This document shows, piece after piece, positions 25,607 through 31,535 of a DNA stretch of 32,494 nucleotides; the first letter of the stretch is position 1; each line of letters opens with the position of its first letter. A model generated the notes under the pieces. That model was not told the DNA's origin and did not search any database. It was given only the letters and a program-made list of their open reading frames with translations. The position numbers were made by a program, and so were the translations under genes. Source of the DNA: Duncaniella sp. Its GTDB lineage: Bacteria > Bacteroidota > Bacteroidia > Bacteroidales > Muribaculaceae. The DNA lies in assembly GCA_029061025.1 (NCBI GenBank), contig JAIDSW010000261.1, positions 1-32,494 on the forward strand, in the 5' to 3' direction.

Positions 25607-26179
25607 ATGACATATTCGCAAGACGATTTCGATGCAGCTCTCTCGGCGCTCAGGCGCGGGGGCGTGATACTCTACCCTACCGACACGGTGTGGGGTATAG
25701 GGTGTGACGCCACCGATGAAGAGGCCGTCGAGCGGATATTCCGTATCAAGCGGCGTGCCGATAGCAAGGCCATGCTTTCGCTCATCGACTGCGCTGAAGC
25801 TCTTGAAGGCTACGTTGACCCCGAGGCCGCGTCTGCATCCATAAAGGTCATTGATCCCGCGCGGCCTACCACAGTGATTTACCCGAAGGTAAGAAACATA
25901 GCTGCGCCACTGGTGGCCGATGACGGCTCGGCCGGATTCCGCATAAGCCGTGAGGAATTCTCGCGCGAGCTGTGCCGGCAGCTCGGTCGTCCGGTAGTGT
26001 CAACCTCAGCCAACATCAGCGGCCGCCCTGCTCCGGCATCTTTCTCGGAGATTGATGACGAGATCAAGGCTGCGATGGACTATGTGGTGATACACGGCAG
26101 AGAAAGTGACGGCTTGGCAACCCCGTCGCGCATCGTAAAACTGAATCCCGACGGCACGGTAGCCGTGATACGCCCATGA
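25607..26179 (+). CDS. L-threonylcarbamoyladenylate synthase (TsaC/Sua5/YciO family)
   Basis: 190 aa; GGVILYPTDTVWGIGCDATDEEAVERIFRIKRR; PVVSTSANISGRPAP. Confidence 0.94.
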   Translation: MTYSQDDFDAALSALRRGGVILYPTDTVWGIGCDATDEEAVERIFRIKRRADSKAMLSLIDCAEALEGYVDPEAASASIKVIDPARPTTVIYPKVRNIAAPLVADDGSAGFRISREEFSRELCRQLGRPVVSTSANISGRPAPASFSEIDDEIKAAMDYVVIHGRESDGLATPSRIVKLNPDGTVAVIRP

Positions 26180-27987
26180 ATGCCGCTACACTCCGACTCC
26201 GCAAGTGTGGCCGCGCGCTCCACACCATCTTCCTGAGCTTTCTGCTCTGGCGGCAACGTCATGTCAAGGAGCGCACGCTGGTGATGATACTCGCCCTTTT
26301 CGTGGGTATCGCATGCGGATTCGCAGCGCTTATTCTTAAATCGCTCATCCATGTGATTGCCACGTTTCTCACGAGCCATCTCGCCGTGGCGACGGGCAAC
26401 TGGCTGCTGCTCGTGTATCCCCTGGCGGGTATCATGATCACGAGCATGTATGTGCGCTACGTGGTGCGCGACAACATCTCCCACGGTGTCACGCGCGTGC
26501 TCTATGCCATTTCACAAAACAAAAGCCGCCTCAAGCCGCACAACATTTACACTTCGGTCATAGCCTCGTCGATCACCATAGGTTTCGGCGGATCGGTGGG
26601 AGCCGAAGGCCCTATCGTATACACCGGTGCCGCGATAGGCTCCAATATAGGCCGCGTGTTCCGCCTGTCGCCGCGCATCCTCATGATACTCGTGGGATGT
26701 GGCGCCGCCGCCGGTATAGCCGGCATATTCAAGGCACCCATAGCGGGAATGCTTTTCACGCTTGAGGTGCTGATGATCGACCTTACCACCGTGTCGGTCA
26801 TGCCGCTTCTTATCTCGTCGATAAGCGCCGCCACGGTAGCCTATGTGTTCACGGGCTATACACCCGAATTCTCGTTTATGCAGAGCGAGATATTCCTTAC
26901 CCAACGAATACCGTTCGTGATACTTCTCGGGCTCTTCCTCGGATTCGTGTCGCTCTACTTCACCCGCGTCACCGGCTTTATGGAAGGTGTTTTCAAGCGC
27001 ATAAAGTCAGTGTGGGGCAAGATACTTGCCGGTGGCACCATCATAGCCCTGCTCGTGTTTCTTTTCCCGCCGCTCTACGGCGAGGGATATTCCTCAATCA
27101 CCGCGCTCATCAACGGCCACACGGCCGAGATAGTCGACCGCTCGATCTTCTACAGCGACCGCGACGACGTGTGGTTTATCATCTTCTTCGTGAGCGCCAT
27201 AGTGCTTTTCAAGGCATTCGCCACCTCGGCCACCAACGGCGCCGGCGGTGTCGGCGGTACATTTGCGCCGTCGCTCTACGTGGGCGCGATGGCCGGATTC
27301 CTTTTCGCCTACACCATCAATGCGATATTCGACCTCGACCTTTCGACCAAAAACTATGCGCTCATGGGCATGGCCGGAGTGATGAGCGGCGTAATGCACG
27401 CCCCGCTGATGGGCATCTTCCTCACGGCCGAAATGACGGGCGGCTACCAGCTGTTTCTCCCGCTGCTGATAGTCTCGACCATATCCTACGGCACCATACG
27501 CATCTTCGAGCCCTACAGCATCTACACCCGACGCCTCGCCCGCCAGGGCAAACTGCTCACCCACCACAAAGACCGCGCCGTGCTCACCCTGCTTAAGATG
27601 GACAATGTGATCGAGACCGACTTCGTGCCCGTGCATCCCAAGATGAATCTGAAGCAGATGGTCGACGCTATCTCGCGCAGCTCGCGCAACCTGTTTCCGG
27701 TGCTGAACTCCGACGGCACACTGATGGGAGTGGTAATACTCGACGAAATCCGCAACATAATGTTCCGCCCCGATTTGTACAAGCGCATGTATGTCAACCA
27801 GTTCATGTCCATGCCGCCGGTGAAGATCGAAGTTGGCCAGAGCATGGAGAGCGTGATGAAGGCATTTGACGACACCGGCGCCTGGAATCTGCCCGTGGTC
27901 GAAAACGGCAAATATGTAGGCTTCGTCTCAAAATCTAAGATCTTCAACTCCTACCGCCGCGTCCTCCGCCACTACTGCGAGGATTGA
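26176..27987 (+). CDS. ClC family chloride channel/transporter with C-terminal CBS domains
   Basis: 603 aa; GSVGAEGPIVYTGAAIGS; GAAAGIAGIFKAPIAGMLFTLEVL; GVGGTFAPSLYVGA; CBS region after about residue 470. ATGA overlap with the upstream gene. Confidence 0.94.
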   Translation: MNAATLRLRKCGRALHTIFLSFLLWRQRHVKERTLVMILALFVGIACGFAALILKSLIHVIATFLTSHLAVATGNWLLLVYPLAGIMITSMYVRYVVRDNISHGVTRVLYAISQNKSRLKPHNIYTSVIASSITIGFGGSVGAEGPIVYTGAAIGSNIGRVFRLSPRILMILVGCGAAAGIAGIFKAPIAGMLFTLEVLMIDLTTVSVMPLLISSISAATVAYVFTGYTPEFSFMQSEIFLTQRIPFVILLGLFLGFVSLYFTRVTGFMEGVFKRIKSVWGKILAGGTIIALLVFLFPPLYGEGYSSITALINGHTAEIVDRSIFYSDRDDVWFIIFFVSAIVLFKAFATSATNGAGGVGGTFAPSLYVGAMAGFLFAYTINAIFDLDLSTKNYALMGMAGVMSGVMHAPLMGIFLTAEMTGGYQLFLPLLIVSTISYGTIRIFEPYSIYTRRLARQGKLLTHHKDRAVLTLLKMDNVIETDFVPVHPKMNLKQMVDAISRSSRNLFPVLNSDGTLMGVVILDEIRNIMFRPDLYKRMYVNQFMSMPPVKIEVGQSMESVMKAFDDTGAWNLPVVENGKYVGFVSKSKIFNSYRRVLRHYCED

Positions 27988-28093: not shown

Positions 28094-28240
28094 ATGAAAG
28101 TATCGAAAAAACAACCGTCGATAACCTCCCTGACTGCTGATGGGGGTCGTAAATCTGCGCAGTCGATAAAGCTCCAAGCTGTAAAAGCTGAAGACCGCGT
28201 GAAACTTCGCATCAGTTCATATCAATATCTTCTTCCGTAA
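28094..28240 (+). CDS. Candidate small ORF (48 aa)
   Basis: MKVSKKQPSITSLTADGGRKSAQSIKLQAVKAEDRVKLRISSYQYLLP*, 33 nt after a TAAATTTG box. No recognised family. Confidence 0.3.
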   Translation: MKVSKKQPSITSLTADGGRKSAQSIKLQAVKAEDRVKLRISSYQYLLP

Positions 28241-28402: not shown

Positions 28403-28434
28403 TTTGGAAATGTGAACCCTAAGGAGTATCTTTG
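28403..28434 (+). promoter_or_regulatory. Promoter of the candidate ncRNA
   Basis: TTTG (28403-28406), N20, TATCTTTG (28427-28434); ideal Bacteroidetes spacing. Confidence 0.7.
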
Positions 28435-28437
28435 TGT

Positions 28438-28674
28438 TATAAAAGCAAAGGCAGGGCGAGAGAGCCCGAGCCAAAATTGAAAATACCACGCCGCATCAAA
28501 GCAGATTGGGAAACTCTACAAGTTTTATCGAAATACCGAGACAAGCTTAGCCGACCAATGGCGGGCCTCATCCCCGAGAGGGGAGGCCACCGTGCCCGGA
28601 GGATTACAAAGGCCGGCGAGCACTCAAATCCTGTCATTCGGAGTTTCACCACATTCTTTGGTGCGGTGATTTTT
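28438..28674 (+). ncRNA. Candidate structured non-coding RNA (about 235 nt)
   Basis: Promoter upstream; 5' hairpin GGCaGGGCgagagaGCCCgaGCC; hairpin GGCC-tca-TCCCC-gaga-GGGGA-GGCC; GGATT...AATCC helix; terminator TCACCACA-ttctttgg-TGcGGTGA-TTTTT at 28646-28674; no convincing ORF. Confidence 0.65.
28646..28674 (+). terminator. Intrinsic terminator of the candidate ncRNA
   Basis: TCACCACA/TGCGGTGA stem (7 of 8 pairs) followed by TTTTTGT. Confidence 0.65.
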
Positions 28675-28742
28675 GTATCCGTCTGAACACTATCGCCGCG
28701 GCATTTGTTAAAAAAGTATATCTCACTTTTTAACATATCATT

Positions 28743-30080
28743 ATGCTCTGCGATATTATCCCCACCCACACCGTTGCCGTATGGCTGCTCGAGACTATCT
28801 ACAAGGCGCTCGACATGCTCGGCCTGAAACATGACAAGACGACCGAAGAAGTCATCTACGTAGCCGTAATAGTGCTTATCGCGCTTGCTATCGGCTGGGT
28901 GCTCAAGCTTGCGATAGTGTGGCTCGTAAGAAAAATCATCGCCGTGAAGCGACCCAACACGGCGGCACTGCTTACACAATATCACGTATTCACGCGCACC
29001 TCGCGGGTGATTCCGCCGCTGGTAATCCTTACGCTCCTGCCGTTTGCATTCACGAGCACCTCAAAGCTGCTCGACATATGCGAGCGACTGCTGTGGGCCT
29101 ATACAATAATCGTGTTCACCATCGCCGTCACGTCGATAGTGACCCTTGCATGGGTTGGCTACAATAACAAGCGCAACACTCGCAACCTGCCGCTCAACGG
29201 TGTGCTCAACACCATCGTGGGCGTGATATGGATCATCTCGGCGATAGTGGTGGTATCGGTGATCATCGATAAATCACCCGCCATGCTGCTTACCGGTCTC
29301 GGTGCTTTTGCGGCAGCATTGATGCTGGTGTTCAAAGACAGTATCCTCGGCTTCGTGGCGGGCATACAGCTGTCACAAAACGACATGCTGCGCGTGGGCG
29401 ACTGGATCGTGGTGCCATCGACGATTGCCAACGGTATAGTGGTCGACGTGTCGCTCTCGGCTGTCAAGGTGCAGAACTGGGACAACACCATCGTCACCTT
29501 GCCTCCCTACACGCTTATATCCACATCGTTTCAAAACTGGCGCGGAATGACCGAAAGCGGCTGCCGGCAGATAGCCCGCTCCATACTCGTCGACGCCAAC
29601 TCGATACTTCCTTTGGCTTCGGACAAGACAGATGAACTTGTCGCACGCTATCCGCTGCTGAAACCGTGGGTCGACAAGACCCGTGCCGCAGGTCACGACA
29701 CATTTGACCCCGGGCTGGCAACCGTCAACGGTTCGCTTGAGACGAATCTCGGTCTGCTCCGTGCTTATCTGTGCGCTTATCTGCTGCAAAGTCCGTCGTT
29801 TGACCACAACAATCAGATTCTCGTGCGCACGCTCGCGCCTACACCCGAAGGCGTGCCCCTGCAGATATGGGCATACACCTCCACCACTGCCTTTACCGCT
29901 TACGAGGCAATACAGAGCGCTCTCTTTGAGCACATAATCGCCGTAGCCCCCGACTTCGGGCTGGAGATATACAACGAGGAGAGCGGCAAGGATGCAATCT
30001 CGACCGTCACCGTCGATATGTTGCCTCCATCATCAGCATCAACCACCGATTCCTCAACTCAAACAAACGCAAAGCAATGA
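28743..30080 (+). CDS. MscS-family mechanosensitive ion channel
   Basis: 445 aa; GLGAFAAALMLVFKDSILGFVAGIQLSQNDMLRVGDWIVVPSTIANGIVVDVSLSAVKVQNWDNTIVTLPPYTLISTSFQNWRGM. Confidence 0.93.
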   Translation: MLCDIIPTHTVAVWLLETIYKALDMLGLKHDKTTEEVIYVAVIVLIALAIGWVLKLAIVWLVRKIIAVKRPNTAALLTQYHVFTRTSRVIPPLVILTLLPFAFTSTSKLLDICERLLWAYTIIVFTIAVTSIVTLAWVGYNNKRNTRNLPLNGVLNTIVGVIWIISAIVVVSVIIDKSPAMLLTGLGAFAAALMLVFKDSILGFVAGIQLSQNDMLRVGDWIVVPSTIANGIVVDVSLSAVKVQNWDNTIVTLPPYTLISTSFQNWRGMTESGCRQIARSILVDANSILPLASDKTDELVARYPLLKPWVDKTRAAGHDTFDPGLATVNGSLETNLGLLRAYLCAYLLQSPSFDHNNQILVRTLAPTPEGVPLQIWAYTSTTAFTAYEAIQSALFEHIIAVAPDFGLEIYNEESGKDAISTVTVDMLPPSSASTTDSSTQTNAKQ

Positions 30081-30861: not shown

Positions 30862-31227
30862 ATGAACCAGAGTGAGAATCAAAATCCGGATATTCGAGTA
30901 ATACTCAGGACTCCTGAGTTTGATGAATTCTACGGGTCACTGCCTCAACAAGTAAAGGAAAAGTTCCAATACGTATTCAAGGTATTGTAAAGTGTATATA
31001 ATATTTCTACAAAATTTGTCAAGCATCTTGAAGGGACTGAATTATATGAGATGAGAGTATCATCAGGTTCAAATGAATACAGGAGCATATTATTTGCAAT
31101 AGACCACAGCAATGTCATTCAGTCGACAAGAGTAATACTTTTAAACGGCTTTCTAAAAAAGTCGACTAAGGATTACAAGAAACAAATAAACATTGCCATC
31201 AAAATATTAAATAATTTACAGTCATGA
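30862..31227 (+). pseudogene. RelE/HigB-like toxin interrupted by an in-frame TAA
   Basis: Translation MNQSENQNPDIRVILRTPEFDEFYGSLPQQVKEKFQYVFKVL*SVYNISTKFVKHLEGTELYEMRVSSGSNEYRSILFAIDHSNVIQSTRVILLNGFLKKSTKDYKKQINIAIKILNNLQS*. The stop is at 30988-30990 and the rest of the frame is intact. Confidence 0.85.
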
Positions 31228-31535
31228 TAAAGTTAGATGAAGCCAAATTATCAAAACTGCCTACTACAAATCAACTCCTCGATGAGCAATATGGAGCAAA
31301 CGGCACTAAAGAGCGTGAAGAATTCAACGCAAAGGCTTTGGCATGGTATTACGGCTCACTTCTGCGCGACCGAAGAAAAGAATTAAAACTCACACAGCGC
31401 CAGGTTGCTGAAAGGATAGGCAGAGAGCAAACATATATCGCTCGCGTCGAACGTGGAAAAACTGACATTCAGATGTCAAGTTTTTTTCGGATCGCATCAG
31501 TGCTCGGTATTCAGTTCACGGCTTCGTTTGTATAA
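31224..31535 (+). CDS. HigA-like XRE-family HTH antitoxin
   Basis: 103 aa; RKELKLTQRQVAERIGREQTYIARVERGKTDIQMSSFFRIASVLG; ATGA overlap with the toxin frame. Confidence 0.9.
   Translation: MIKLDEAKLSKLPTTNQLLDEQYGANGTKEREEFNAKALAWYYGSLLRDRRKELKLTQRQVAERIGREQTYIARVERGKTDIQMSSFFRIASVLGIQFTASFV

Follow-up and report, generated by a model that had tools for sequence, protein, structure and literature searches.

The window, the whole stretch of 32,494 nucleotides that was analysed, contains a structured RNA gene flanked by two genes for ion channels, a CLC-type chloride channel with a CBS domain (26176–27987) and an MscS-type channel (28743–30080). The nearest named relative of the MscS-type protein is from a Duncaniella MAG (95% identity), and the RNA's place next to mscS is not conserved. 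In the gap ahead of the RNA gene there is a possible small ORF of 48 codons (MKVSKKQPSITS..., 28094–28240, + strand) without a Pfam or NCBIfam match. At 31051–31535, a 58-residue ORF precedes a gene for an XRE-type regulator that is similar to HipB/HigA antitoxins, with matches below the curated cut-offs; the two may be a toxin-antitoxin pair or the remnant of one. No tRNA or tmRNA was found in the window.

The RNA gene was identified with cmscan and Rfam 15, which gave a sole match across the whole window, to RF01693 at 28489–28674 (+ strand). The match spans the full-length model at 134.1 bits (E 1.7e-22), well above the gathering score of 60 bits, and the apical arm pairs as in the family consensus. 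Weak matches in the region to the Avalong thermometer, Afu_514, mir-9461 and L31-Firmicutes models were discarded, all being far below their cut-offs. RF01693 is titled "Bacteroidales-1, 6S-Bacteroidales RNA suggested" in this release and corresponds to the Bacteroidales-1 RNA of Weinberg et al. 2010 (PMC2864571). Neither the window nor the genome to which it belongs (G000) is matched by the 6S-Flavo model RF01685, and the RNA was therefore assigned to RF01693. Searches with the canonical 6S model RF00013, which represents E. coli ssrS and B. subtilis 6S-1, were negative both in the window region (E-values up to 10) and across the whole genome (0.001); thus, it is architecture and mechanism rather than sequence that argue for kinship with the proteobacterial and firmicute 6S RNAs. 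The gene is a real non-coding RNA gene of an already known kind. The original prediction, made from the DNA letters, of a stand-alone structured RNA gene with its own promoter is borne out by the family match, the fold, the covariation and the conservation of the promoter; its description as unannotated and possibly a new class is refuted by the score. Both of the known kinds that it offered instead, a 6S-like RNA or a Bacteroidales-specific motif, apply to this RNA; of the models it proposed to scan, Bacteroidales-1 matches and canonical 6S does not.

The gene is preceded by a −33 element, TTTG (28403–28406, + strand), and a −7 element, TATCTTTG (28427–28434, + strand), of the form TAnnTTTG, separated by a spacer of 20 nucleotides. 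TTTG and TAnnTTTG are the consensus elements of the Bacteroides primary sigma factor, sigma-ABfr (PMC7366714). Of 111 family homologues, 102 carry the −7 box 10–102 nucleotides upstream of the RNA core, compared to a rate of 5.5% in shuffled sequence, and 25 of 27 order-level homologues carry it as well; the exact TTTG at a 20-nucleotide spacer accompanies it in 50 of the 111 family members. The promoter is thus present as originally described, with a conserved −7 box. From the spacing, transcription would start at about 28439–28441. An extended form, TAnnTTTGyGTTrTAA, has four other matches in the genome (C43:3329, C43:19210, C179:1719 and C331:3533), all upstream of protein genes and without Rfam hits; by eye, one of these genes has a RecA-like start and one a Skp/OmpH-like start. 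A promoter or leader start shared with other structured RNAs was sought among these four matches and none was found. Since the extended form also precedes protein genes, it seems to be a housekeeping promoter in general use.

The sequence from 28440 to 28674 folds at −84.6 kcal/mol, compared to −64.5 kcal/mol for dinucleotide shuffles (z −4.3, none of 200 as good). A consensus was derived with RNAalifold from an alignment of 60 family- and order-level homologues. It contains 37 pairs, 30 of which show changes on both sides. Paired positions are occupied by standard pairs in 93.5% of cells, versus 80.4% in column shuffles, none of 500 of which did as well, and no more than 49.4% once the partners are slid.

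The outermost helix of the RNA is a closing stem, formed by 28489–28501 and 28656–28668 (+ strand) both in the minimum-energy fold and as helix 1 of the consensus. All ten of its consensus pairs have compensatory changes on both sides, with 94.1% of cells paired; examples of variants are GCCGGAG/CUCCGGC in three homologues (L005, L009 and L011) and CCUCACUGAG/CUCAGUGAGG in another (L012). These ends are left unpaired in the structure line of RF01693, and the stem was also missed in the original prediction. The second stem (helix 2) pairs GGGAAACUC (28508–28516, + strand) with GAGUUUCAC (28641–28649); 97.8% of its cells are paired, with three pairs changing on both sides and three invariant. 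Between the second stem and the apical arm lies a central bubble. Its 5′ strand (28517–28544, + strand) is mostly unpaired in the consensus and is a candidate template strand for product RNA; its 3′ strand (28622–28640, + strand), with the CUCAAAUCCUGUC block, is nearly invariant in the alignment. Within the bubble, the consensus pairs GAG (28538–28540) with CUC (28623–28625), without variation. Near-invariant blocks on both bubble strands are compatible with two product RNAs; inspection of the bubble by eye did not reveal a −7-like promoter sequence. The apical arm (28545–28621, + strand) consists of helices 4 and 5, in which 16 of 17 pairs have changes on both sides, and pairs as in RF01693. 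With the closing stem added, the molecule therefore takes the canonical 6S outline of closing stem, large central bubble and apical arm (PMC8414754), and this outline is found in the covarying consensus itself.

The 3′ arm of the closing stem is followed directly by ATTTTT (28669–28674), and together they probably double as the terminator. The letters of the hairpin with TTTTT proposed earlier are present, but the arm belongs to the closing stem rather than to a separate hairpin: at least nine of 11 closing-stem pairs are kept in 54 of the 60 homologues, and all four pairs of the local 3′ hairpin in 34. Most family members have a separate terminator hairpin directly after the core. None is seen in the window or its two nearest relatives, which share the closing stem and ATTTTT and then diverge. 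Flavobacterial homologues have the same ending, a closing stem followed by TTTTTT. We speculate that the local 3′ hairpin could be the form adopted once the closing stem is opened in the course of product RNA synthesis, by analogy with the 3′ hairpin formation on product RNA synthesis discussed for E. coli 6S RNA (PMC10406553).

Two inner helices had also been proposed from the letters, and covariation supports neither. For GGCC..TCCCC-gaga-GGGGA-GGCC, the window does contain the TCCCC-gaga-GGGGA tip; beneath it, however, GGCC/GGCC pairing is in competition with CCUC (28566–28569)/GAGG (28599–28602), and it is the latter that covaries, as part of helix 5. GGATT/AATCC is present in the sequence but finds no support from covariation, as its GG belongs to a different covarying pairing, again in helix 5. 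Covariation among homologues does support a third proposed helix, GGCaGGGC/GCCCgaGCC at the 5′ end.

This 5′ helix is real and covaries among relatives. It forms a leader hairpin, GGCaGGGC-GAGAGA-GCCCgaGCC (28450–28472, + strand), located between the promoter and the core and outside the RF01693 model. In Muribaculaceae leaders of at least 30 nucleotides it takes the form NNNC-RAGAGN-GNNN, a conserved loop on compensatory stems. RAGAG occurs in 56 of 74 such leaders, compared to a mean of 17 and a maximum of 26 in shuffled sequences. The first four pairs around the loop are standard in 71.9% of cells versus 28–36% when slid, this slide comparison being the sole control for relatedness in the leader counts, and perfect 4-bp stems comprise 15 distinct stem sequences. 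The hairpin was not evident by eye in 25 order-level leaders and appears to be specific to the family. No description of it as a part of 6S RNA was found in the accessible literature. There is about an even chance that the hairpin serves Muribaculaceae 6S RNA as a functional domain peculiar to this lineage, one that the Rfam model lacks; a processing or protein-binding site would be our guess at its role.

The genome of the window has one RF01693 copy. A single match was found in each of the 91 near-complete Muribaculaceae genomes (91/91) and in 113 of all 119 sampled genomes of the family. RF01693 matches 39 of the 148 genomes in the order sample. A covariance model (R1), built from the 60-sequence alignment only, all Bacteroidales sequences, with the closing stem included, matches 56 of the 148; the filters were stricter here than in the family sample, and therefore these absences are not proven. 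The unmatched genomes of the order sample were counted against the 6S interpretation.

The R1 model also connects Bacteroidales-1 with 6S-Flavo. R1 and RF01685 matches coincide in 15 of the 15 genomes of a phylum sample that match both, with R1 extending about 25–30 nucleotides past RF01685 on either side, and R1 was found in all ten extracted 6S-Flavo loci of that sample (L228–L237; E-values of 6e-14 to 1e-8). The displayed sequences of the flavobacterial-type loci among these ten keep the closing stem ahead of the TTTTTT. Additionally, RF01693 and RF01685 overlap in two bridging genomes of the order (G154, C19:12456–12633, L054; G188, C28:10435–10601). Therefore, Bacteroidales-1 and 6S-Flavo are one homologous group. 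Both have AAACUCA, CCUGU and GGAGUUU blocks and the closing stem. The RF01685 model differs in being shorter (108 positions) and covering the inner part only, and it does not match the window. The window RNA resembles Bacteroidales-1 more fully, with a full-length match, the same apical arm, the same invariant blocks and a single copy per genome. In contrast to the Rfam model of that family, which leaves the ends unpaired and omits the leader hairpin, the homologues covary in the closing stem. RF01693 carries no clan in the cmscan output.

6S RNAs are generally known to work by promoter mimicry, a block in stationary phase and release on regrowth. As an open-promoter mimic, 6S RNA blocks the housekeeping holoenzyme until product RNA synthesis frees it (PMC8414754, PMC10406553). 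In Bacteroides thetaiotaomicron, dRNA-seq detected 6S RNA together with product RNAs of two classes (PMC7366714); this 6S RNA, for which Wehner et al. 2014 is cited there, is presumably the RF01693 locus. The window RNA shares with canonical 6S RNA the closing stem, the large central bubble and the apical arm, as well as product RNAs reported in a Bacteroides relative, and differs in that the promoters and the primary sigma factor of Bacteroidota are not those of the canonical systems. The family match, single-copy conservation and conserved promoter established here, the lack of a conserved ORF, and the 6S and product RNAs of B. thetaiotaomicron make 6S RNA the most likely product of the gene; the covarying fold and the relationship with 6S-Flavo were likewise established. 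An RNA of about 235 nucleotides would be transcribed from a housekeeping-type promoter and fold into a long hairpin whose closing stem, large central bubble and apical arm resemble an open promoter. By analogy with the general 6S mechanism, this RNA would sit in the active site of the housekeeping RNA polymerase holoenzyme as growth slows, and come free once the enzyme, on regrowth, has used the bubble as a template for a short product RNA. We are confident that this locus, in a Muribaculaceae bacterium near Duncaniella, encodes 6S RNA (Rfam Bacteroidales-1); its RNA would sequester RNA polymerase, with binding and release in this organism predicted from the known systems.

Other explanations of the conserved structure were considered. 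The RNA could be a trans-acting sRNA that pairs with mRNAs and does not regulate polymerase, its 6S-like shape being coincidental. The invariant single-stranded blocks of the bubble could indeed pair with targets, and polymerase binding is itself argued by analogy. The covarying 6S outline, the presence of exactly one copy in every near-complete genome of the family and the detection of product RNAs of the Bacteroides 6S RNA (PMC7366714) speak against it, as does homology with 6S-Flavo; because of the universality in the family, the fold and the 6S-Flavo kinship, a trans-acting sRNA is very unlikely. A role as cis-regulatory leader of mscS would fit the immediate context, since that gene begins 68 nucleotides downstream on the same strand. 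The original prediction had suggested collecting homologues upstream of mscS-like genes. Among 80 mscS relatives with flanking sequence, however, the RNA lies upstream in just the two closest, and in most relatives of the RNA a terminator hairpin directly follows it. The RNA is not tied to mscS, and with synteny lost (2/80) the leader hypothesis was rejected as most improbable.

The region could also code for a protein, as a frame of 84 residues (28432–28686) is open in the window. Its start lies inside the −7 box, the frame opened by the same TTG runs for a median of 18 codons across 102 homologues, and the product has no Pfam or NCBIfam match. This unconserved frame, already dismissed as non-biological in the original prediction, was rejected, and a coding function can be virtually discounted.

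As a 6S RNA gene, the locus itself is ordinary, being another copy of a near-universal regulator. The closing stem makes RF01693 6S-shaped and ties it directly to RF01685, which argues for placing both in one clan. Both the closing stem and the leader hairpin could be added to the Rfam model, which would improve the modelling of Bacteroidota 6S RNA. The leader hairpin offers a concrete add-on domain in a gut lineage that is abundant and has a primary sigma factor and promoters unlike those of the model 6S systems.
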